NCBI GenBank assembly: GCA_022788225.1
Contig: JALEVO010000003.1
Location: forward strand, 1-64,000
DNA from: Oscillospiraceae bacterium
GTDB taxonomy: Bacteria > Bacillota > Clostridia > Oscillospirales > Ruminococcaceae
Length of the DNA stretch: 64,000 nucleotides
Direction of reading: 5' to 3'
Position numbers and translations under genes: made by a program. Shown in pieces: positions 24,752 to 38,310 of this stretch. The notes beneath the pieces were generated by a model that had not been told where the DNA came from, did no database searches, and worked only from the letters and a program-made list of their open reading frames with translations. Each line of letters starts with the position of its first letter. Position 1 is the stretch's first letter.

Positions 24752-26752
24752 TTAATTTTCATAAAAATAGACTTCTTTATCTGTAACATAAATTGACACA
24801 ATATATCCGTTCTCAGTATCAAAATAAGCTTTTATTTCTCTGCCGTCTTCTGATGTGTAACTGAGCATATAATTTGCTTCCAGTATGAAAGTATCTGGTG
24901 AACCGTCAGCCGGATTTTCAGTTGATATTTTTTTATTTCCTGCAATATCTGAAACCTCTGCATTTAACTTACTGTAAACATCAGATTTCACACATTCGCT
25001 GATATCCAGTTCTTCCGAACCGCAGTGCAGTAAAGGAACAGAATTCGTATATTCAGAATTGGAACTGAACGCTTCAAAAAGGAAATACTTTCCGTAATAT
25101 TTTCCGTAGAATACAACATCATTATAGTTATAATATCCGTAAGTACCCAGATAAAGAGAACCTTCGATGTCATACTTTTCAAAATCTGCCAAAACTTCCT
25201 GTGTTTCCTCTGCTGTATATATCTTTCTGTAATCAAAGCTGTTCTCATCAAGATTTATCGCACAGCCTATAAGGTCAGCAACATTAGTTGTGTCGGGGTT
25301 GGCAATATAAAGCGTTACCTCCTCGCCCTCTTCCACTGCTGTATACTGATACGGTGAGAAATGGCTGACATACAGGTCATTGCTGTCGGGGTCAACACCT
25401 TCCACATATTCAAGCTTGACTTTCAGCCCCATTTTTTCAAGTATTTCCTTTGCGCTGTCAAGAGGATAATTATAAAGAGCCGGCATCATTCTTGCGTAAA
25501 CTCTCAGTTCGACATCTGTACCGCTGGCGACAGCTGTTCCCGGCTGCGGATACGTTTCAAACACATTATTAAATTCAAAATCAATATCCGTCGGTGCCTC
25601 ATAATATCTTGAACTTACTTTCAGTCCGGCTGCCTCAATTGCTTCCTGCGCCTCCTGTACAGACATTCCTGTTACATCGGGAACGATCACAGTCTTTGGA
25701 TAGCCTTTGTACGGCGAATAAACTGTTTCGTTCCAGTAGCTTCGGGAGGAGTGTTCAACAGAGTAGGTCACATCTTCACCGTTTTCGTCAACATAGAACT
25801 CAATATTCTCCCAGTTTCCGTCATAGCAGAGTACTGATTCTATTATCTCGAAAACTATCTGAGGAGAATCCTGGGAATTTTTAAAAAGGCAATAACAGTT
25901 GCTTATTGTATAATCGCTCTCAGACTCCCCGGCTTTTTCAAATTCGTCAATTTTCTGCTGACCAAGCGCAATTATTTTTTCCTTTGATTCATCGCTGTTT
26001 ACTCTTTCAAGTGCAGACTGAATCATATCCTCTGTTACATTTTCAAATTCTGCCTTTGATTTTGTTATGCTGACAATATTGTCCGGCTCAACCCCCTCGC
26101 CGTCATAGCCTATAATAAATTCATAATTTGTCATGGCAAAGTCGACTTCCGTAAATTCATTGTCGCTTTTAGCAGTATAATCCACCACATAAACATATCT
26201 GCGGTAATTATTGTTTTCACTCTCCTGATATGCTGTATCATCAAGGAGATATGCAGGAGTCATTCCTTGCAGATATACATAATCACCTAAAATTTCCATT
26301 TCAGTATATACATGACTTTTCTCGCTTTCAAGGAATTCGAGAAATTCTGCCTTTGCAGCCTCAAATTCCATTGCCTGCTTTTCCCTGTTGGCAGCTTCCA
26401 GTTCCTGCTGCATTTTAAGTTTTTCTTCCTCTTCCAGCTGTTTTTCAGCTTCCTGTGCTTCCAGTTCCTTTTGCAGTTCATTCATATCCGAATCAATATC
26501 CGCTGCACTGCTCATGCTGGTCCTCGCCTTGAATTCAGACATATTCACCTGCGATTTATTAAAAATCACAAGCTTTGCCACCATTCCCACATTCAGACAA
26601 AGCAGAAGTGCAATCATAACAGGCACGAAAACAGGACGCTTTATAACTGTCACAACATCATTTTCCTCAGCCGCTTTAAGAATCTGTTCTTTCAGGCAGT
26701 CGTCCGGCTTGATTCCGTCAATGCTCCGGTACAAATCCATTTTTTTCATCAC
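24752..26752 (-). CDS. Membrane-anchored putative anti-sigma protein with extracytoplasmic PASTA domain(s)
   Basis: Short cytoplasmic N-terminus, TM PVFVPVMIALLLCLNVGMVAKLVIF, coiled coil, PASTA VPDVTGMSVQEAQEAIEAAGLKV...YPQPGTAVASGTDVELRV; overlaps the ECF sigma gene by 35 bp. Confidence 0.75.
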   Translation of the reverse strand: MMKKMDLYRSIDGIKPDDCLKEQILKAAEENDVVTVIKRPVFVPVMIALLLCLNVGMVAKLVIFNKSQVNMSEFKARTSMSSAADIDSDMNELQKELEAQEAEKQLEEEEKLKMQQELEAANREKQAMEFEAAKAEFLEFLESEKSHVYTEMEILGDYVYLQGMTPAYLLDDTAYQESENNNYRRYVYVVDYTAKSDNEFTEVDFAMTNYEFIIGYDGEGVEPDNIVSITKSKAEFENVTEDMIQSALERVNSDESKEKIIALGQQKIDEFEKAGESESDYTISNCYCLFKNSQDSPQIVFEIIESVLCYDGNWENIEFYVDENGEDVTYSVEHSSRSYWNETVYSPYKGYPKTVIVPDVTGMSVQEAQEAIEAAGLKVSSRYYEAPTDIDFEFNNVFETYPQPGTAVASGTDVELRVYARMMPALYNYPLDSAKEILEKMGLKVKLEYVEGVDPDSNDLYVSHFSPYQYTAVEEGEEVTLYIANPDTTNVADLIGCAINLDENSFDYRKIYTAEETQEVLADFEKYDIEGSLYLGTYGYYNYNDVVFYGKYYGKYFLFEAFSSNSEYTNSVPLLHCGSEELDISECVKSDVYSKLNAEVSDIAGNKKISTENPADGSPDTFILEANYMLSYTSEDGREIKAYFDTENGYIVSIYVTDKEVYFYEN

Positions 26753-27242
26753 TGTTCGCCTCCATTTCTATTTTCAGCTTTTTCCTTGCTCTTGAAAGCC
26801 TTGAAGTAACACTGTTTTCGCCGATTTTGAGTATCTTTGCAATTTCGCTGACAGAATAGCCCTCATAGTAATAAAGTTCCAGCACTACTCTATTTTTCGG
26901 CGAAAGCTCAAACAAGTCAATAAGCCTCACTGCGTCCTCAATGGCTCCCGTTGATATCTCTGCCGTTTCTTCCAGTCCGACAGTATTTTTCTGCCAGAAA
27001 CTCTTCTGAAAGTCCTTGCAGCAGTTGACCGCCACTCTTATAAGCCATGCCTTTTCAGCATCAGAGTCGGAAAACTCCGGTGACTTGTAGTAAAGCTTTA
27101 TAAAAGTGTTCTGCAGGGCGTCCTCTGCATCCTGCTTATTCCCCAGCCGCAGAATGCATATTCGGTAAAGCATGGGGGAATACTTATCATACTTTTCCGA
27201 AAAATCTTCCTTTGAAAGCCGTGGTTTGTTCTTCATTTTCAT
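26718..27242 (-). CDS. ECF-type RNA polymerase sigma factor
   Basis: YRICILRLGNKQDAEDALQNTFIKLY (region 2) and YYYEGYSVSEIAKILKIGENSVTSRLSRARKKLK (region 4). Confidence 0.93.
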   Translation of the reverse strand: MKMKNKPRLSKEDFSEKYDKYSPMLYRICILRLGNKQDAEDALQNTFIKLYYKSPEFSDSDAEKAWLIRVAVNCCKDFQKSFWQKNTVGLEETAEISTGAIEDAVRLIDLFELSPKNRVVLELYYYEGYSVSEIAKILKIGENSVTSRLSRARKKLKIEMEANSDEKNGFVPEH

Positions 27243-27368
27243 CCCTCCGTTTCCGGCGTTCAGACCGGTATTTTTATCTTTCTGTAAATAAAACGAATGA
27301 AAGTTTAAAAATACTGCATAAAAATAAATTTTTTTGAAAAAAATTTCAGCGTAACAACTGTAAAAAAA

Positions 27369-27387
27369 GGGCGACCAATGGTCGCCC
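27369..27387. repeat. Dispersed palindrome GGGCGACCAATGGTCGCCC
   Basis: Perfect arms GGGCGACCA/TGGTCGCCC; related copies at 36821, 39979, 45221. Confidence 0.85.
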
Positions 27388-27416
27388 GAATATTTGAAAA
27401 TCCTGATTAATCAAAT

Positions 27417-28166
27417 TTATTCATAACAGCAAAGCGCAACAATCGTTATATTATCCTTACTGCCCTTTTCAATTGCAAGCTTTACAAGTTTTTGCAGTCT
27501 TTTTGTTAGATTAGACGGGAGTGCCAGAATATCCTCCATCTCTGTACAGGTCACATAGTCCGAAAGACCGTCGGAGCAAATCAGTATCACATCACCGTAT
27601 TTCATTATCTCGTGCATATTTTTTATATCCGGCTTTGGCATTGCTGAATTATTTCCCATAACCGGAAAAATTATATTTCTGTGAACATGGCTTTTCTTTT
27701 CAGCCTCGGTTATAGTCCCCTCTTCATAGAGAAGCTGAACCAGTGACTGGTCTCTCGAAATCTGCTTTATATCGCCCTTTCTGTAACGGTACATTCTTGA
27801 ATCCCCGACATTTATAGTGTGGATAACATCGTTTTCATCAATTGCAACTGCGCAAAGAGTTGCCTGCATATTCTGCTTGGACTTGTCCTGTGCGCTTAAA
27901 GCTTTCAGTTTGCTGTGAATATTGAGAATTTCCTTTTTAAGATTGGTTTTTGAGTTAAAGGGTACATCTTTAAGCAGTTCAAGGCACTTGCAAGACGCAA
28001 CTTCCCCGCACTTTTCTCCGGAAACACCGTCCGACACAGCTGCAATAAAGGGGGCAGATATCATAGTATTTATATTGCCGGAGGTCATAACTTTTTTCCC
28101 GATAAGATATGCGTCCTCGTTATGATCCATTATTCCGTTGTCAGTAATACCGCAGCAATAATACAT
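27417..28166 (-). CDS. PP2C-family Ser/Thr protein phosphatase (PrpC/Stp-like)
   Basis: DHNEDAYLIG, AAVSDGVSGEKCGEVAS, INVGDSRMYRYRKGDIKQISRDQSLVQ, ICSDGLSDYV, KDNITIVAL. Confidence 0.92.
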   Translation of the reverse strand: MYYCCGITDNGIMDHNEDAYLIGKKVMTSGNINTMISAPFIAAVSDGVSGEKCGEVASCKCLELLKDVPFNSKTNLKKEILNIHSKLKALSAQDKSKQNMQATLCAVAIDENDVIHTINVGDSRMYRYRKGDIKQISRDQSLVQLLYEEGTITEAEKKSHVHRNIIFPVMGNNSAMPKPDIKNMHEIMKYGDVILICSDGLSDYVTCTEMEDILALPSNLTKRLQKLVKLAIEKGSKDNITIVALCCYE

Positions 28167-28637: not shown

Positions 28638-28888
28638 AACAATACCTCCTTGAAATTCTTAAAACCACATATTTTACTTTCTGCGGTATCGGGATTATTA
28701 TTCCCTTCCGCTGACTATATAATACCACTTGCGGCTTTTAAAGTCAATATGATTGCATAATTTTCGTAAATTTAGTATAATGAATAGGCAGGCAGATAAG
28801 TTATTTTTATTTAAGTTGATAATTTGTGGGCTTTATACAATAAACAATGTTTAATTTTGTAACATATACACATAAAAAGGAGATTAAA

Positions 28889-30202
28889 ATGAAAGCATAC
28901 TTTGAAAGCTTCGGCTGCAAAGTCAATCAGTATGAAACTGAAAGCATAAAAGCTGATTTTTCAGCTAACGGATACTATATAACGCAAAATCCGCAGGAAG
29001 CTGACGTTATCGTCATAAATTCATGCACTGTTACTGCCTCCGGTGACAGCAAGTCCCTGTACTCTCTGCGAAAACTCAGAAAGACCAGTCCCAATGCGGT
29101 GACTGTCCTGACAGGCTGTATGCCCCAGGCCGCACCGGAAACAGCGGAGAAAATTCCAGAGGCAGATATAGTGACCGGTACAAAGGAAAGAGGAAAAATT
29201 CTCTCCCTTGTTACCGCCTTTCTTGAGGAGCGCAAGCGTGTTGTGAGCATTTCCCAGTACGGGAAAGAGGACGAATTCGAAAGAACTGTCTGCGGAGATT
29301 TCGGCGATAAGACAAGGGCGTTTGTAAAAATACAGGACGGCTGTAATCAGTTCTGCTCCTACTGCATCATTCCCTACGCAAGAGGACGCTGCCGTTCAAA
29401 ACCCCTTGACACTCTCAGAGAGGAAATTGCGGCACTGGCAGAAAGTGGTCACAAAGAAATCGTGCTTGTGGGCATAAACCTTGCTTTTTATGGCAAGGAA
29501 CTGGGGTTAAGGCTTGCTGACGCAGTTGAGGAGTGCTGTAAGATAGAGGGAGTGGAGCGTATAAGGCTTGGTTCTCTTGAACCTGAAGTTATCACAGATG
29601 AAGACCTGCTCCGACTTTCCAGACTGCCCCAGTTCTGTCCGCAGTTTCACCTTTCCCTGCAAAGCGGCTGTGACAGAACGCTTCACAATATGAACAGGCA
29701 CTACAACACCGCTGAATACATGGGCATTGTAAACAGGATTCGTTCCGTCTTTCCGGACTGCTCCATAACCACCGATATTATGGTGGGTTTTCCGGAGGAG
29801 AGCGATGAGGACTTTGAACAGTCGCTGGAATTTGTCAGAGCGGTGGGATTTGCGAAAATACACGTTTTCCAGTACTCGCCGAGAAATGGCACTCCTGCCG
29901 CAAACCGTCCGCAGATATCCAAAGCGGTAAAGCATGAACGTGCGGACAGAATGAAAGCCCTTGCCGCAGAATTGCAGAAAGAGTATCTGAAAAAACAGGT
30001 AGGGAGGACTGTTCCTGTGCTGTTTGAGCGTGAAAGCTCCCCCGAATTTCACCAGGGATATGCACCGGATTACACATTAATAAAAATTCCTGCAAAAAAA
30101 TGCGAAAAAAGTTTGCGCAGAACGATTTTTTGTGTTAAAATAGAAGAGAGTAATATTGACTGCTGTATCGGACACATCGTTAATCCCGACACAGAGGTTT
30201 GA
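28889..30202 (+). CDS. mtaB: tRNA (t6A37) methylthiotransferase MtaB
   Basis: FGCKVNQYETESIKADF; radical SAM CNQFCSYCIIPYARGRCRS; NSCTVTASGDSKS. Confidence 0.93.
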   Translation: MKAYFESFGCKVNQYETESIKADFSANGYYITQNPQEADVIVINSCTVTASGDSKSLYSLRKLRKTSPNAVTVLTGCMPQAAPETAEKIPEADIVTGTKERGKILSLVTAFLEERKRVVSISQYGKEDEFERTVCGDFGDKTRAFVKIQDGCNQFCSYCIIPYARGRCRSKPLDTLREEIAALAESGHKEIVLVGINLAFYGKELGLRLADAVEECCKIEGVERIRLGSLEPEVITDEDLLRLSRLPQFCPQFHLSLQSGCDRTLHNMNRHYNTAEYMGIVNRIRSVFPDCSITTDIMVGFPEESDEDFEQSLEFVRAVGFAKIHVFQYSPRNGTPAANRPQISKAVKHERADRMKALAAELQKEYLKKQVGRTVPVLFERESSPEFHQGYAPDYTLIKIPAKKCEKSLRRTIFCVKIEESNIDCCIGHIVNPDTEV

Positions 30203-30271
30203 TAATAGGGCATTGCCGCAGAAATGCCGTTTTTAAACTAACTTTTTTTACTGCGGAGAATGGAGCAAACA

Positions 30272-33200
30272 ATGTCTGTATTCCGAATTTATGTGGAAAA
30301 GAAACCGGAATTTGCCGTTGAGGCAAAATCTGTTATGAGCGACGTTCAGACAGCGCTCAGACTGAATCTTAACAATGTAAGAATCTTAAACCGCTATGAC
30401 GCTGATAATTTAAGCGAGGAAGATTTTGAAATGTCTGTCAACACCGTCTTTTCAGAACCGGCAGTTGACGTGACCTATAAGGAAATGCCTGTACTGATAA
30501 ACAACGAAAGGGTTTTCGCTGTTGAATATCTTCCGGGACAGTTTGACCAGCGTGCAGACAGCTGTGAGCAGTGTATTCAGATTCTGACACAGAAAGAACG
30601 CTGCCGTGTCAAGAACGCAAGAGTTTACATCATTGACGGAAATATCACTGACGCTGAATTTGAAAAGCTGAAGTCATATCTCATTAACCCTGTTGAAAGC
30701 AGAGAGGCTTCACTTGACACAGTCAAAACTCTCGATACAAACTATGACATTCCGGAAAAGGTTGAAGTCCTCGAAAACTTTATCCGCTTAAATGACAAGG
30801 GGCTTGACGCTTTCATCAAGGAATTTGGTCTTGCTATGGACTTTGACGATATCAAGTTCTGCCAGTCATATTTCAGAGATACTGAAAAGCGTGACCCTAC
30901 AATCACAGAAATCAGAATGATTGATACTTACTGGTCTGACCACTGCCGTCACACTACATTCTCAACAAACATTGAAAATGTAAAAATCGACACAGACTAT
31001 ATAAAGGAAACCTATGATGAGTACATCGAGGTAAGAAACGACCTGGGACGTGAGCAGAAACCTCTTACACTCATGGACCTTGCAACAATTGCCGCTAAAA
31101 AGCTTAAAGCAGACGGCAAGTTAAACGACCTTGACGAAAGCGAAGAAATCAACGCTTGTTCCGTTAAAATCAAGGTAAATGTTGACGGAAACGAAGAAGA
31201 CTGGATTCTCATGTTCAAGAATGAGACTCACAACCACCCGACTGAAATTGAACCTTTCGGCGGTGCGGCAACCTGTCTTGGCGGAGCTATCAGAGACCCG
31301 CTTTCAGGACGTTCCTACGTTTATCAGGCAATGAGAGTTACCGGTGCGGCAAATCCGCTTGTACCAGTCGAGGACACTATCACAGGCAAGCTGCCTCAGA
31401 GAAAAATCACAGTGGGCGCTGCTAACGGCTACAGCTCCTACGGCAACCAGATAGGTCTTGCAACAGGTCATGTTTCTGAAATCTATCACCCGGGTTATGT
31501 TGCAAAAAGACTGGAAATCGGTGCGGTAGTAGGTGCGGCACCTGCTGAAAATATCAGACGTGAAGCCCCTGTTGCCGGAGATGTTGTGGTACTCTTAGGC
31601 GGCAAGACAGGCCGTGACGGCTGCGGCGGTGCGACAGGTTCTTCAAAGTCACACACTCTTGAATCCCTTGAACACTGCGGTGCAGAAGTTCAGAAGGGTA
31701 ATCCTCCGGAAGAAAGAAAGCTCCAGAGATTATTCAGAAATCCGGACGTTACAAAGATGATTAAGCGCTGCAACGACTTCGGTGCAGGCGGTGTTTCAGT
31801 TGCTATCGGTGAGCTTACAGACGGTCTTATAATCGACCTGAATGCAGTTCCTAAAAAGTACGAGGGACTGGACGGTACTGAAATCGCAATTTCAGAATCA
31901 CAGGAAAGAATGGCTGTTGTTATCGCCAAGGAGGACACTGAAAAGTTCCTCGCAGAAGCCGCAAAGGAAAACCTTGAGGCAACCGTTGTTGCAGACGTTG
32001 TGGACGAGCCAAGACTTAAAATGAACTGGAACGGCGTTACTATCGTTGACCTTTCAAGAGAGTTCTTAAACTCAAACGGTGCGCCGAAATATACAGATAT
32101 CACAATTGAAAAGCCGGACACAAAGGCTATCTGTCCTTACGCAGACAATCCGGAGGGCTGGGACGCTCTTATGGCTAACCTCAATGTCTGCTCACAGAAG
32201 GGACTTGTTGAGAAGTTTGACTCCACAATCGGTGCGTCAACAGTTCTCATGCCGTTCGGCGGAAAGTATCAGCTTACTCCGACACAGGCTATGGCGGCGA
32301 AAATTCCGGTGCTCCACGGTCAGACAGACACCTGCTCTGTAATGGGCTGGGGCTATAATCCGTTTATCAGCGAAAAGAGCCCTTATCACGGTGCTATACT
32401 GGCAGTTATCGAGTCTATTGCAAAGGTAGTTGCGGCAGGCGGTAAATCAGAACACTGCTGGCTGACTTTCCAAGAATACTTTGAAAGAACACAGGGCACT
32501 CCGGAGCGCTGGGGCAAGCCGCTGGCAGCACTTCTCGGTGCGTTTAAAGCACAGCTTGAAATGGGTTGCGGAGCAATCGGCGGAAAGGACTCAATGTCCG
32601 GTACTTTCGAGAACATTGACGTTCCTCCTACACTGGTTTCATTTGCAGTTTCAACTGCTTCAAGCAGAAAGGTAGTTTCTCCGGAATTCAAGGACGCTGG
32701 TGACGTTGTAATCGTTATCAAGCCGGAATACGACGAAAACAAGCTGCCGGTATTTGACAGTGTAAAGGCTTGCTTCAAGCAGGTTGAGGAAATGATTGAA
32801 AGCGGACGTGCAAAGGCTGTATGGACTGTTTCAGGCGGCGGTATTGCTGAGGGTCTTGCAAAGATGTGTTTCGGCAACAGAATTGGCTTTGAGTTTGAGA
32901 GAAAGCTGACAGAAGAAGAACTGTTCATGCCACATTACGGCGCATTCATAATCGAACTGAACGGCATTGAAAAGGACGGCGAAACAGCAATCGGCAAGAC
33001 AACAGAGGAATACAACATCTTCGGAAAGGATTACACACTTTCACTTGATTCACTCCAGAAAACATGGGAAAGCAAGCTTGAACCGGTGTTCCCATGCAGA
33101 ATAAAGACTGTTCTTTCAGCTGTTGAGTCCTATGAATACGATGCTAAGAAGAGAGCGTTCCCGACAATCAAGGCGGCTAAACCTAAGATATTTATCCCTG

Positions 33201-33976
33201 TATTCCCGGGTACAAACTGCGAATACGATACAGCAAGAGCCTTTGAGAGAGCCGGCGGCGACCCTGAGGTAATGGTAGTAAAGAACCTGAGTGCGTCTGC
33301 AATTGAGGAGTCAGTTGACGAGGCTGTAAGAATTATTTCACAGTCACAGATTATTATGATTCCGGGCGGATTCAGCGGCGGTGACGAGCCGGAGGGAAGC
33401 GGAAAGTTCATTACTGCATTCTTCAGAAATCCAAAGGTTAAGGACGCTGTTCACGAACTGCTCAAAAAGCGTGACGGTCTTATGCTGGGTATATGCAACG
33501 GTTTCCAGGCGCTTATCAAGCTTGGTCTTGTACCGTTCGGCGAAATCACAGACATGACACAGGAATCCCCGACACTTACTTTCAACACAATCGCAAGACA
33601 CCAGTCTATGATGGTTAACACAAGAATTGCGTCAAACAAGTCCCCATGGCTTGCTGACTGCAATGTAGGCGATATCCACACAATTCCGATTTCACACGGC
33701 GAGGGCAGATTCGTTGCTCCGCAGTCACTTATCGTAAAGCTTGCAAACAACGGTCAGATTGCAACACAGTACGTTGACTTGAACGACAAGCCGTCAATGG
33801 ATATCAGATACAATCCAAACACATCTATGGAGGCTATCGAGGGTATCACTTCTCCGGATGGACGTATTCTCGGCAAAATGGGTCACAGCGAACGTATCGG
33901 CTACGATGTATGCAAGAACGTTGCCGGAAACAAGGATCAGAAGATTTTTGAAAACGGCGTAAGATACTTCAAATAA
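30272..33976 (+). CDS. purL: Phosphoribosylformylglycinamidine synthase, fused single polypeptide
   Basis: TYWSDHCRHTTF, KNETHNHPTEIEPFGGAATCLGGAIRDPLSGR, C-terminal GATase PVFPGTNCEYDTA...LGICNGFQALIKLG. Confidence 0.97.
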   Translation: MSVFRIYVEKKPEFAVEAKSVMSDVQTALRLNLNNVRILNRYDADNLSEEDFEMSVNTVFSEPAVDVTYKEMPVLINNERVFAVEYLPGQFDQRADSCEQCIQILTQKERCRVKNARVYIIDGNITDAEFEKLKSYLINPVESREASLDTVKTLDTNYDIPEKVEVLENFIRLNDKGLDAFIKEFGLAMDFDDIKFCQSYFRDTEKRDPTITEIRMIDTYWSDHCRHTTFSTNIENVKIDTDYIKETYDEYIEVRNDLGREQKPLTLMDLATIAAKKLKADGKLNDLDESEEINACSVKIKVNVDGNEEDWILMFKNETHNHPTEIEPFGGAATCLGGAIRDPLSGRSYVYQAMRVTGAANPLVPVEDTITGKLPQRKITVGAANGYSSYGNQIGLATGHVSEIYHPGYVAKRLEIGAVVGAAPAENIRREAPVAGDVVVLLGGKTGRDGCGGATGSSKSHTLESLEHCGAEVQKGNPPEERKLQRLFRNPDVTKMIKRCNDFGAGGVSVAIGELTDGLIIDLNAVPKKYEGLDGTEIAISESQERMAVVIAKEDTEKFLAEAAKENLEATVVADVVDEPRLKMNWNGVTIVDLSREFLNSNGAPKYTDITIEKPDTKAICPYADNPEGWDALMANLNVCSQKGLVEKFDSTIGASTVLMPFGGKYQLTPTQAMAAKIPVLHGQTDTCSVMGWGYNPFISEKSPYHGAILAVIESIAKVVAAGGKSEHCWLTFQEYFERTQGTPERWGKPLAALLGAFKAQLEMGCGAIGGKDSMSGTFENIDVPPTLVSFAVSTASSRKVVSPEFKDAGDVVIVIKPEYDENKLPVFDSVKACFKQVEEMIESGRAKAVWTVSGGGIAEGLAKMCFGNRIGFEFERKLTEEELFMPHYGAFIIELNGIEKDGETAIGKTTEEYNIFGKDYTLSLDSLQKTWESKLEPVFPCRIKTVLSAVESYEYDAKKRAFPTIKAAKPKIFIPVFPGTNCEYDTARAFERAGGDPEVMVVKNLSASAIEESVDEAVRIISQSQIIMIPGGFSGGDEPEGSGKFITAFFRNPKVKDAVHELLKKRDGLMLGICNGFQALIKLGLVPFGEITDMTQESPTLTFNTIARHQSMMVNTRIASNKSPWLADCNVGDIHTIPISHGEGRFVAPQSLIVKLANNGQIATQYVDLNDKPSMDIRYNPNTSMEAIEGITSPDGRILGKMGHSERIGYDVCKNVAGNKDQKIFENGVRYFK

Positions 33977-33998
33977 AAAAGTTAATTTCTGAATAACT

Positions 33999-34037
33999 AA
34001 AGCCTGTTCTCTGAAAATATGATGAGAACAGGCTTTA
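33999..34037 (+). terminator. Hairpin between purL and the Rrf2-family gene
   Basis: AAAGCCTGTTCT...AGAACAGGCTTT. Confidence 0.7.
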
Positions 34038-34056
34038 TAGAAGAAGGAGGAGCAAT

Positions 34057-34494
34057 ATGAAAATTTCCACAAAGGGCAGATATGCACTGCGTATGATGCT
34101 TGATCTTGCAATGAATCAGGGAGAAGATTTTGTTTCTCTTAAAGATATAGCGGAGCGTCAGAATATTTCAAAAAAATATCTTGAACAGATAGTACCGCTT
34201 ATGAACAAATCCGGAATGCTGAAAACAAACCGTGGAAATCACGGCGGCTACCGTCTTATCAAAACTCCTGACAAGTATACAGTGGGCGAAATACTGCGTG
34301 TTACCGAGGGCAGTCTTGCACCGGTTGCCTGTCTTGAATATGAGCCGATTGACTGTGAACGTGCGGGGGAATGCCTGACACTGCCGGTCTGGAAAGGTCT
34401 TTACAAGGCTGTTACCGATTATCTTGACGGCATCACACTTCAGGATATAATCGACAAAAATGCACAGTCCTACGGAAATGATTACTGCATTTAA
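34057..34494 (+). CDS. Rrf2-family transcriptional regulator (IscR-like)
   Basis: MKISTKGRYALRMMLDLAMNQGEDFVSLKDIAERQNISKKYLEQIV; Cys cluster CLEYEPIDCERAGEC. Confidence 0.93.
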   Translation: MKISTKGRYALRMMLDLAMNQGEDFVSLKDIAERQNISKKYLEQIVPLMNKSGMLKTNRGNHGGYRLIKTPDKYTVGEILRVTEGSLAPVACLEYEPIDCERAGECLTLPVWKGLYKAVTDYLDGITLQDIIDKNAQSYGNDYCI

Positions 34495-34500
34495 ACAGAC

Positions 34501-34535
34501 AAAAAGTACCGCACATATTGTACGGTACTTTTTTA
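34501..34535. terminator. Terminator between convergent genes
   Basis: AAAAAGTACCGCACATATTGTACGGTACTTTTTT. Confidence 0.85.
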
Positions 34536-34551
34536 TATGTTAAGGGAAAAA

Positions 34552-36615
34552 TCATGCATTATCAGCACTTGCCGCAATAACCTCTGTCAGCAGATTTGAC
34601 GGAAGCTGCTCGTATCTCATAAAATCAAATGTAAAGCTGCCCATACCTCTTGTGGTCTGACGGAGATACATTGTAAAGTCGTGCATTTCTCTCATAGGCA
34701 CTTCCGCTGAAATTGCTGTCATACCAGTTTCAGCAGGTTCCATTCCGGAAACTCTTCCTCTGCGCTTGTTAAGCTCGCCCATTACATCACCGGTGTTTTC
34801 GTCCGGAACTAAAACGTTCAGTGTGCCGATCGGTTCAAGCATTACCGGGTCTGCATTTTTCAGTCCCTCTTTATACGCAAGCGACGCCGCAGTCTTGAAC
34901 GCCATTTCTGATGAATCAACAGGATGATAGGAACCGTCCAGCAGAATAGCTTTAAGTCCCACAACAGGACAGCCGGCTAAAACGCCTTTCTTTACGCACT
35001 CCTGCAAGCCCTTTTCAACTGCCGGGAAGTAATTTTTCGGTACTGCTCCGCCGAATACCTTTTCCTCAAAAATCAGTTCGTCGCTTACGCAAGGCTCAAA
35101 CTCAATCCATACATGACCATACTGTCCGTGTCCTCCGGTCTGTTTCTTATACTTGCCCTCTGCCTTGACCTTTTTGCGTATCGTTTCTCTGTACGCAACT
35201 TTCGGTACGCTAAGTTCGATATCAGCGCTGAACTTGTTTTTAAGCTTTGCAGCGGCAATTTCAAGATGCTGTTCGCCAAGTCCGCTTAAAACCTGTTCAT
35301 TTGTATGTAAATCAAGGACGTAAGTCAATGTCTTATCCTCGTCAAGCAGTCGCTGCATACCGGAAGATATCTTGCTCTCATCACCCTGTGATTTTGCCTT
35401 GACAGCCATTGAGTAGCAAGGAACAGGGAAATCTATCTTTTCAAACGCAAGCTTTCTTTCCGGTGCACAAAGAGTATCGGAAGTTGACGCTGTTATCTTT
35501 ACAGCTGCGGCAATATTTCCGGCTGCAACTTCTGAAACTTCAGTCTGCTGTTTGCCTTTTACGGTGTAAAGCTTGCCGATTTTTTCTGTTTCTCCGGTTG
35601 CTGAATTGTAAACCTGTGAATCAGCTTTCAGTACGCCGGACATAACACGGATATATGACATTTTACCTACAAACGGGTCTGTAACTGTCTTGAAAACAAA
35701 TGCTGAAAGGGGTGCTTCCGGACTGCATTCAACCTCTGTCATATCACCGTCTGCTGTTTCGGCAACAGGTGCCGGGACTTCTTCCGGTGACGGCAGGAGA
35801 AGTGTGATTTCCTTAAGCAGCATATCGACGCCGGACAAATCAGCCGCAGAAACGCACACAACAGGAGTAATGATACCCTTGTTCATGCCGGCGTGAATAC
35901 CGTCTGTCAGCTCTTTCTGAGTAAACGGCTCTCCCTCGAAGAATTTATCCATAAGCGCCTCGTCAGTTTCGGCAACAGCCTCGCTGACAGCCTCAACAAG
36001 ACCGTCAATACGATAGGTCATCTTTTCGATTGCCTCCGCAGACGGAAGGTCGATTTCAACCGCCTTGCCGTTTTCGTACTTATACGCTTTCATCTCTATG
36101 AGGTTAACGTAGGAAACGATTTTTTCGTTCTCGATTACTGGTACCACAACCGGGCATACAGTCGGGCCGAAAACAGTTTTCAGTTCTGTCAGTACGTTGT
36201 AGAAGTTTGCATTTTCGTCGTCAATCTTTGTGACTGCAAACATTTTTGACTTTCCGGCTTTTTCAGCTGCCGCATAGGCTTTTTTTGTTCCTACCTTGAC
36301 ACCGGACTTTGCAGAAACGGTTATCATTACAGTATCAGCGGCTCTGATACCCTCTGCCATTTCTCCGGCGAAGTCGAACAGTCCCGGAGTATCTATAAGG
36401 TTAATTTTAGTATCCTCGTAATCAAAAGACGCAATTGCTGTATTGATTGAAATTTTTCTTTTTATCTCCTCTGGGTCAAAGTCGCAGATAGTTGTACCGT
36501 CAGCAGTCTTGCCTGCTCTGTCGGACGCACCGGCTTTAAACATGAGCGCATCTGCAAGTGTGGTTTTACCGGAACCGTTGTGTCCGGCAAGTGCTATGTT
36601 CTTTATTTGTTTCAT
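34552..36615 (-). CDS. Elongation factor G-like protein (EF-G2 type)
   Basis: AGHNGSGKTTLADALMF, LIDTPGLFDFAGE, GHGQYGHVWIEFEP; divergent from canonical fusA. Confidence 0.9.
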   Translation of the reverse strand: MKQIKNIALAGHNGSGKTTLADALMFKAGASDRAGKTADGTTICDFDPEEIKRKISINTAIASFDYEDTKINLIDTPGLFDFAGEMAEGIRAADTVMITVSAKSGVKVGTKKAYAAAEKAGKSKMFAVTKIDDENANFYNVLTELKTVFGPTVCPVVVPVIENEKIVSYVNLIEMKAYKYENGKAVEIDLPSAEAIEKMTYRIDGLVEAVSEAVAETDEALMDKFFEGEPFTQKELTDGIHAGMNKGIITPVVCVSAADLSGVDMLLKEITLLLPSPEEVPAPVAETADGDMTEVECSPEAPLSAFVFKTVTDPFVGKMSYIRVMSGVLKADSQVYNSATGETEKIGKLYTVKGKQQTEVSEVAAGNIAAAVKITASTSDTLCAPERKLAFEKIDFPVPCYSMAVKAKSQGDESKISSGMQRLLDEDKTLTYVLDLHTNEQVLSGLGEQHLEIAAAKLKNKFSADIELSVPKVAYRETIRKKVKAEGKYKKQTGGHGQYGHVWIEFEPCVSDELIFEEKVFGGAVPKNYFPAVEKGLQECVKKGVLAGCPVVGLKAILLDGSYHPVDSSEMAFKTAASLAYKEGLKNADPVMLEPIGTLNVLVPDENTGDVMGELNKRRGRVSGMEPAETGMTAISAEVPMREMHDFTMYLRQTTRGMGSFTFDFMRYEQLPSNLLTEVIAASADNA

Positions 36616-36820
36616 TTTGAATTTCTCCTTTTAATAAAATTGTACAATAACCCGTGTTTTATTATACTACTTTTTATTGAAACTTTCAACCATCCCGGAA
36701 ATTTTCTATATATTTTATCAATATTAAAGCTTAACTTTGTGCAATTTGCTATGTACGTAGATAAAAATGTACGCATATAAGTTGCTGAAAATGCTTGTTG
36801 ATGAAAACGCTTAAAAATAA

Positions 36821-36840
36821 CGGGCAACCAATGGCTGCCC
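36821..36840. repeat. Dispersed palindrome CGGGCAACCAATGGCTGCCC
   Basis: Variant of the GGGCGACCA-TGGTCGCCC family; followed by CGAAAATTTGAAA as at 27388. Confidence 0.75.
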
Positions 36841-36864
36841 GAAAATTTGAAACTGAACTTTTTA

Positions 36865-38310
36865 TTAATACGCTTTACCCCAGTAAACCATATGCTTTGC
36901 CGGCTTTCCACAGCATACGCAGGTATCAGAAATATGCTCCTGTTCAAACGGAATACAGCGTGAGCCAACGCCTGTTTTCTCCTTAACCATATCCTCGCAA
37001 GCCTCGTCGCCGCACCACATAGCCTTTACAAAACCGTCGCCCTTTTCTTCAAGTACGCTTACAATCTCGTCCATTGTCTTGCAGGCATAGGTCTTGTTTT
37101 CACGGTTTTCAAGTGCCTTTTTGTATATACCGTCATGCACTTCCTGAAGCTTTTCTGTAACAGCTGTTTCAAGATTATCCAGCTGAACAAATGTCTTTTC
37201 TCTGTTGTGACGTGTAACAACAACGCACTGGTTATTTTCAATATCCTTAGGACCAATCTCGATTCTTACCGGAACACCCTTCATTTCATATTCCGCAAAC
37301 TTCCAGCCCGGTGAATTTTCGCTGTCGTCAAGCTTAACACGGATTCCCGCAGCTTTCAGCTTTTCAAACAGTTCGTTTGCCTTGTCAAGTACGCCCTCTT
37401 TGTGCATTGCAACCGGTACGATTACCGCCTGAACCGGTGCAACAGCCGGCGGAAGTACCAGTCCGTTGTCGTCGCCGTGAGTCATGATAATTGCGCCGAT
37501 AAGACGTGTTGTAACGCCCCAGCTTGTCTGGTGCGGATAAACCTTTTTGTTTTCCTTGTCAGTGTACTGAATGTCAAAAGCCTTTGCAAATCCGTCACCG
37601 AAATAGTGAGAAGTACCAGCCTGCAGAGCCTTGCCGTCATGCATAAGTGCCTCGATAGCGTATGTAGCTTCTGCTCCGGCAAATTTGTCACTGTCTGTCT
37701 TTCTGCCCTTTACAACAGGCATAGCAAGACAGTTTTCACAGAAATCAGCGTAAACATTAAGCATACGCTCTGTTTCCTCGATAGCCTCCTGTGCTGTTGC
37801 GTGAATTGTGTGTCCCTCCTGCCAGAGGAATTCTCTTGAACGCAGGAACGGGCGTGTTGTCTTTTCCCATCTTACAACGCTTACCCACTGGTTATAAAGC
37901 TTCGGCAGGTCACGGTATGAGTGGATAATGTTTGAATAGTGCTCACAGAAAAGCGTTTCAGATGTAGGACGGACGCACAGCCTGTCCTCAAGCTTTTCAC
38001 TGCCGCCGTGAGTTACCCATGCAACCTCCGGTGCAAAGCCCTCAACGTGGTCTTTCTCTTTCTGCAAAAGACTTTCAGGGATAAACATAGGCATGCAAAC
38101 ATTTTCATGTCCTGTTTCCTTGAACATTCCGTCAAGAATTCTCTGAATGTTTTCCCATATTGCATAGCCGTAAGGACGGATTACCATACAGCCCTTTACG
38201 CTTGTATACTCAATAAGCTCTGCTTTTTTTACAATGTCAGTGTACCACTTGGCAAAATCCTCGTCCATAGGAGTGATTGCCTCAACCATTTTTCCGTTAT
38301 TCTTCGCCAT
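36865..38310 (-). CDS. proS: Prolyl-tRNA synthetase, ProS type 3 (archaeal/eukaryote-like)
   Basis: [60 protein letters not shown]. Confidence 0.95.

Follow-up and report, generated by a model that had tools for sequence, protein, structure and literature searches.

A putative membrane anti-sigma factor with PASTA domains, paired with an ECF sigma factor in an Oscillospiraceae bacterium

The sigma factor gene and the membrane protein gene that overlaps it

The window analyzed here is a 64,000-nucleotide stretch from an Oscillospiraceae bacterium, located on contig C132 of genome G000. It carries three genes transcribed on the minus strand in the order PP2C-type phosphatase (28166-27417), extracytoplasmic function (ECF) sigma factor (27242-26718) and a 666-residue membrane protein (26752-24752), a putative anti-sigma factor whose ectodomain contains PASTA domains. 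The sigma factor, at 174 residues, falls within the ∼170-200 residues of the ECF group and consists of regions 2 and 4 only, without region 3. In Pfam it matches Sigma70_r2 (47.5 bits, residues 18-78) and Sigma70_r4_2 (54.1 bits, residues 112-156), and in NCBIfam the sigma70-ECF superfamily (81.8 bits, cut-off 42.9). The gene for the PASTA protein starts inside the sigma gene, the overlap being 35 bp counted from a GTG start and 32 bp from an ATG. A GGAGG ribosome site, read in the sequence within the sigma gene (26759-26763, minus strand), fits this start. The 35-bp overlap reported in the initial annotation, which was made from the DNA letters alone, is thus confirmed for the GTG.

Structurally, the PASTA protein begins with a cytoplasmic segment, the putative anti-sigma domain (residues 1-40; 26633-26752, minus strand as for all parts of this gene), in which a low-confidence model predicts helices at residues 4-12 and 18-29. 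The sole transmembrane window follows at residues ∼41-63 (26564-26632), and hydropathy places a single helix there in all six homologues. Next come an acidic coiled coil or long helix (residues 87-142; 26327-26494), which differs in length among species and is almost gone in G206, and a conserved extracytoplasmic domain of ∼200 residues (143-350; 25703-26326) with the motif TN.EYIIGYDG...NI.SIT.S. This domain, N-terminal to PASTA, belongs to no Pfam family and gives no significant fold match (best E 0.07), although its model reaches a pLDDT of 73. Two PASTA domains occupy residues 355-418 (25499-25690; PF03793, 53 bits) and ∼421-482 (25301-25486; PF03793, 32.6 bits), and the whole protein scores 75.4 bits against PF03793, for which the cut-off is 23.2. 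The predicted fold of the PASTA part agrees with the solved PASTA domains of PknB, PrkC and PBP2x; for the first domain, Foldseek gives a TM-score of 0.87 against the PknB PASTA structure 3ouv. A C-terminal extracytoplasmic domain of ∼180 residues without an assigned family (486-666; 24755-25297), missing in G127, completes the chain. Because the structure model of the full 666 residues has a mean pLDDT of 55.8, only its PASTA part is relied upon. The initial annotation had listed a short cytoplasmic segment, one transmembrane helix, a coiled coil and PASTA-like repeats; the list is correct as far as it goes, including the PASTA profile match, but incomplete, since further domains lie at ∼143-350 and 486-666.

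No kinase domain is matched in the PASTA protein by Pfam or NCBIfam, and the PASTA kinase model NF033483 covers only profile positions 359-517 of 563, at 61 bits against a cut-off of 450. Homologues of the whole protein were not found in viral contigs. The acidity of the ectodomain was considered as a sign of cationic-peptide sensing and rejected: it amounts to -12.8 per 100 residues, but PASTA kinase ectodomains of the same genome give -12.9 and -18.5.

Conservation of the pair and the case for an anti-sigma factor

The sigma/PASTA pair is kept in six of the 11 sampled species of the genus (G000, G199, G204, G127, G005 and G206), so the arrangement first noticed in the window extends well beyond it. 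Four of the five pairless genomes are 64-89% complete, and the fifth, G205, is 97% complete but split into 450 contigs. Among the six species the sigma factors are 68-98% identical and the membrane proteins merely 27-97%; conservation in the membrane proteins is highest over residues 1-62, which comprise the cytoplasmic segment and the transmembrane helix. PF03793 scores above the Pfam cut-off in all six, with one PASTA domain above threshold in G206. The pair is found in three chromosomal places, beside rpoD (G000, G199, G204), rplM (G127) or pyrG (G005, G206), gene names that were assigned by reading translations. A wider look for such pairs across the bacterial family covered 19 PASTA loci, mostly odd or short frames in other genera, among the ∼150 matches listed; none of them adjoins an ECF sigma gene.

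No anti-sigma model in Pfam or NCBIfam matches the N-terminus of the PASTA protein. A profile of residues 1-62, run blind against 199 genomes of the bacterial family, gave six weak matches outside the genus, in six genomes. In four of these (G015, G055, G056, G116) the match is the N-terminus of a gene that starts at the end of a same-strand ECF sigma gene; of the remaining two, one is an ATPase and one is broken by stops. With about ten ECF genes in a genome of 2,500 genes, almost no ECF-adjacent match would be expected by chance. The anti-sigma domain suspected in the initial annotation therefore has no counterpart in the model libraries, but does have one in the ECF-linked N-termini of four other genomes.

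As for its type, a class I anti-sigma domain comprises ∼100 residues in four helices, often with an Hx3Cx2C zinc motif (PMC7406223). The cytoplasmic part of the PASTA protein departs from this pattern, having ∼40 residues, two predicted helices, no Hx3Cx2C and no model match. Its short length and its two predicted helices, the latter from a low-confidence model, fit the CnrY-like class II, whose short cytoplasmic part wraps the sigma factor with two helices and which it appears to resemble more than class I. By position, the gene fits a membrane anti-sigma factor of an ECF partner, lying directly 3' of an ECF sigma gene, overlapping it and paired with it in six species. Given this pairing, the occurrence of the N-terminal domain in other ECF-downstream genes and the autoregulatory type of the promoter described below, the PASTA protein most probably serves the ECF factor as its membrane anti-sigma factor.

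An orthologous pair in another genus carries a different ectodomain. The sigma factor of G086 is the closest relative outside the genus (clade support 99/98; 249 bits, versus at most 149 for any other), and its pair adjoins pyrG, like those of G005 and G206, and keeps the TGCAGTA promoter together with an N-terminal segment of the same kind. The anti-sigma-like protein of G086 has 318 residues in total and no PASTA. Its ectodomain has no similarity to domain 143-350 and matches the IseA endopeptidase-inhibitor family weakly (21.2 bits, under the cut-off of 29.9). Since this orthologue keeps the sigma factor and the promoter without PASTA, the ectodomain was swapped, and in one lineage at least the sigma/anti-sigma core with its promoter predates the ectodomain found there today. 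Within a class I anti-sigma group, fused domains are usually constant (PMC7406223).

The promoter and the predicted target operons

The sigma/anti-sigma operon is preceded by an ECF-type promoter (27288-27318, minus strand) with the -35 and -10 elements TGCAGTATTT-N12-TCGTTTTAT, presumed to be autoregulatory. Upstream of the sigma gene, the core TGCAGTATTT-N12-TCGTNNTAT is identical in the six species and in the outgroup G086, within flanks that can barely be aligned. A CGT at -10 is typical of ECF promoters. The promoter pattern occurs once in the window (chance 0.12 for a looser pattern). Pattern searches across the 11 genomes found 13 exact sites of TGCAGTA-N15-TCGTNNTAT, compared with ∼0.3 predicted by the base composition. 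Allowing up to one mismatch gives 29 sites, versus six for the reversed pattern.

Judged from the genes downstream of these sites, lipoprotein and ABC-transporter operons are the predicted regulon of the window-type sigma factor, probably for export of, or immunity to, antimicrobial peptides. In G199 (C55) the site lies upstream of two homologous lipoproteins and an ABC ATPase, and in G000 (C61) upstream of an ABC ATPase and a permease-like protein. This G000 ATPase (L181 4053-4694) is truncated at the N-terminus by ∼45 residues that include the P-loop; promoter and gene may have been joined by a deletion, or the copy may be in decay. Two sites in G127 precede, on C10, a lipoprotein, two ABC-2-like permeases and an ATPase closest to the lantibiotic-protection family (175 bits, under the cut-off of 310), and, on C12, MacB-like permeases and an ATPase closest to a bacteriocin-export family (226 bits, under the cut-off of 255). 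Sites on C124 of G127 and C128 of G206 (one mismatch) stand before the same operon, which encodes a solute-binding lipoprotein, two permeases, and HlyD-like and MacB-like proteins. The proteins of this operon are only 39-68% identical between the two species, which argues that the retained promoter site is a true footprint. In G205 (C265) a site precedes a small secreted cysteine-rich protein, lipoproteins and a permease, while the exact site on G205 C30 looks like chance.

The G206 operon comes directly after two precursor genes (CTCPCSCPC and CSCSCSCAC), one of which scores 31.5 bits against the CLI_3235 bacteriocin precursor cut-off of 26. They belong, together with maturation genes, to a CLI_3235-type bacteriocin cluster at C128 ∼28800-38000 (L208, L213), containing the two cysteine-rich precursors, a carrier-related protein, a radical-SAM-like protein, a subtilisin-like protease and an ABC protein. 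The radical-SAM-like, carrier, protease and ABC genes lie upstream of the precursors, and the sigma promoter sits between the precursors and the transporter operon.

Two further ECF-like promoters were seen. A paralogous ECF/DUF4179-like pair in three species has its own promoter, TGAGATATTTTT-N-TCGTTATAT (L184 3303, L185 4242, L187 1430), with TGAGATA at -35 and a -10 of the same type as that of the TGCAGTA promoter. This different -35 suggests that TGCAGTA belongs to the window-type sigma factor and that the -35 is specific to each pair. The site TGCAACATTTTT-N-TTTTCAGTCGTCTAAT lies upstream of a FemABX/GNAT-like gene in three closely related species, on G000 C129 (L186 1021-1051), G199 C39 and G204 C62, and may mark a further target of the window-type or of another ECF factor.

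The phosphatase neighbor, sensing models and related systems

The PP2C-type phosphatase gene (27417-28166, minus strand; PF00481, 40.6 bits) immediately precedes the sigma gene and shares its strand, as the initial annotation had it. Its product falls below the Stp1/PrpC equivalog model NF033484 (161.6 bits versus a cut-off of 230). A strong intrinsic terminator with a perfect 8-bp stem of seven GC pairs and a T-tail (27369-27387, minus strand; fold -18.6 kcal/mol, z -4.1) lies between it and the sigma operon and marks PP2C as a separate transcription unit, and a sigma-70-like promoter site of its own lies at 28280-28252 (11 of 12 matches). The gene adjoins the pair only in G000 and G199 among the six species; no trace of it was seen near the pair in the stretches read for G204 (only 330 bp upstream), G127, G005, G206 and the outgroup G086. 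The terminator and the lack of conserved adjacency in the stretches read speak against the phosphatase as a member of the module, in which the initial annotation had placed it.

At C55 the genome also has a canonical PASTA-bearing PrpC-PrkC pair, whose PP2C passes the NF033484 cut-off, so the window PP2C is a second phosphatase. Further PASTA proteins in G000 are a kinase-like protein at C61 and a frame at C53, probably a penicillin-binding protein (PBP). Where the initial annotation had PASTA acting on a sigma factor instead of a kinase, the presence of a PASTA kinase with its own PP2C in the same genome points to an addition: PASTA sensing at this locus would supplement the kinase route rather than replace it. 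Zinc-ribbon proteins with a kinase-like domain and PASTA repeats (550-1240 residues) form a family common in this bacterial family (L031, L087-L090, L093, L094). A gene group on G000 C138 (L032 1-10890), identified only by reading translations, encodes a kinase and a PP2C-like protein together with a von Willebrand-type protein and what may be a dynamin-like GTPase, and is reminiscent of a protein-phosphorylation island.

The interpretation that we favor, and consider rather probable, is that the pair forms a membrane-linked ECF sigma switch for cell-envelope or antimicrobial-peptide stress, in which PASTA is coupled directly to an ECF sigma factor. The N-terminal domain of the overlapping gene's product would hold the sigma factor at the membrane and inhibit it, while the ectodomain, with two PASTA domains, domain 143-350 and usually the C-terminal domain, would monitor the cell envelope. 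What it would most likely sense are precursors of peptidoglycan or fragments of the wall, perturbed when antimicrobial peptides act or the wall is damaged. On this signal the sigma factor would be freed, probably through successive cleavages of which a site-2 protease makes the last, a release route known from RsiP (PMC8092216); G000 encodes a strong M50 site-2 protease (C94, 215 bits). The free sigma factor would then read TGCAGTA-N15-TCGTNNTAT promoters, presumably raising expression of its own operon and of the lipoprotein/ABC-transporter operons. At the level of sequence, the domains, the overlap, the conserved pairing, the common anti-sigma domain, the conserved promoter and the predicted targets speak for such a switch. 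The initial proposal of a cell-envelope signaling module thus finds support for the sigma/PASTA pair, independently so from a predicted regulon of which one operon lies in a bacteriocin cluster, but not for the phosphatase.

A narrower form of this interpretation is put forward only tentatively. PASTA would be a direct, kinase-free receptor, swapped onto an existing core within one genus; on binding free or antibiotic-trapped wall precursors it would release the sigma factor and thereby induce transporters that protect against bacteriocins or deliver them.

Several observations weigh against the sigma switch as outlined. PASTA domains are not always muropeptide binders, and PASTA is absent from the G086 orthologue, hence not required by the sigma/anti-sigma core. 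Autoregulatory sites account for six of the 13 exact ones, only about seven convincing sites, one with a mismatch, lie elsewhere, and the ABC ATPases score under the NCBIfam cut-offs for bacteriocin and lantibiotic families. At least one convincing site also occurs in G205 (C265), where no pair was detected; in that 97%-complete, 450-contig assembly the sigma gene must have escaped detection, or else site and pair are more loosely linked.

It is doubtful, though conceivable, that PASTA only anchors or spaces the anti-sigma factor in the wall or septum, leaving the sensing to domain 143-350, the C-terminal domain or a partner protein, as PbpP serves RsiP. Domain 143-350 is as constant as PASTA in all six species, these two being the constant parts of the ectodomain, and G206 has one PASTA domain above threshold; the PASTA repeats of StkP and PknB serve localization too (PMC13147305), and a separate PBP senses for the anti-sigma factor in B. 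thuringiensis (PMC8092216). Against an anchor stands the persistence of PASTA above the cut-off in all six species, while G127 loses the C-terminal domain and the coiled coil shrinks in G206. A sigma factor devoted mainly to production or export of the cell's own bacteriocin or signaling peptides, in quorum or self-sensing rather than stress, is unlikely. It would account for the target operon placed directly after two precursor genes in the G206 cluster, for the orthologous G127 operon near an AMP-ligase, a carrier protein and a condensation-domain-like gene, and for the two G127 targets that adjoin agrB-like and AgrC-like genes; yet the promoter precedes the transporter/lipoprotein operon and not the precursor genes, and around the G199 and G000 targets the stretches read show no precursor gene.

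The remaining alternatives concern the composition of the unit. That phosphatase, PASTA protein and sigma factor act as one module, a PASTA kinase phosphorylating the anti-sigma or the sigma factor and PP2C reversing it, has a precedent in the phosphorylation of the anti-sigma factor RseA by the PASTA kinase PknB of M. tuberculosis (PMC10027907) and fits the gene order of G000 and G199. It is nevertheless very improbable in view of the terminator and separate promoter-like site in between, the stretches read in the four other species and G086, where PP2C does not adjoin the pair, and the genome's own PrpC/PrkC pair at C55. Scarcely credible is an unrelated wall protein, co-transcribed by accident and not an anti-sigma factor at all. 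The N-terminus does lack a Pfam or NCBIfam anti-sigma match, but the two genes overlap translationally, their pairing survives relocation, the blind profile hits gene starts after ECF sigma genes in four other genera, and the cytoplasmic segment and transmembrane helix are the most conserved stretch of the protein.

The sigma switch proposed here has partial parallels in known systems. In RsiV/sigma-V of Bacillus subtilis, the ectodomain of a membrane anti-sigma factor is likewise itself the receptor for a wall-related signal, with an ECF partner. That ectodomain is of the DUF3298 type and, unlike the one described here, has no PASTA. Its binding of lysozyme is followed by site-1 cleavage by signal peptidase (as summarized in PMC8092216). 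RsiP/sigma-P of Bacillus thuringiensis shares a one-helix anti-sigma factor, an autoregulated operon and a role as a wall-antibiotic-stress ECF system (PMC8092216), but the sensor there is the separate PBP PbpP, whereas here PASTA, otherwise typical of PBPs and kinases, belongs to the anti-sigma factor itself. In the PknB/RseA/SigE system of Mycobacterium tuberculosis, PASTA input is also tied to ECF sigma release, a link that is itself a hypothesis there (PMC10027907); PASTA resides on the kinase that phosphorylates the anti-sigma factor, while here it is fused to the anti-sigma factor without a kinase domain. The PrkC/Stk1/PknB kinases, which give the best sequence and fold matches, have the same order of a transmembrane helix followed by extracytoplasmic PASTA repeats, but the window protein has a short anti-sigma segment in place of the kinase domain. 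RsgI/SigI of Clostridium thermocellum also combines a membrane anti-sigma factor with exchangeable sensory ectodomains, but the partner here is a two-region ECF factor and not SigI, and the RsgI N-terminal domain was not matched in the PASTA protein by Pfam or NCBIfam.

PASTA domains are known wall sensors on kinases and PBPs. PASTA and ECF anti-sigma factors are each of known kinds; what appears new is their fusion, with a predicted regulon. In the open-access literature searched, no description of a PASTA-bearing anti-sigma factor was found, subscription papers and annotated proteomes having been outside the search, and the architecture may well be present, uncharacterized, in domain databases. 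A PASTA-bearing anti-sigma factor would connect the wall to transcription in a single step. The TGCAGTA promoter would provide a clean reporter for asking what PASTA senses without the kinase network, and the orthologous pair with another ectodomain beside the same gene, pyrG, would serve as a natural domain-swap experiment. The predicted targets, in turn, would link the sigma/PASTA pair to bacteriocin transport in gut bacteria.

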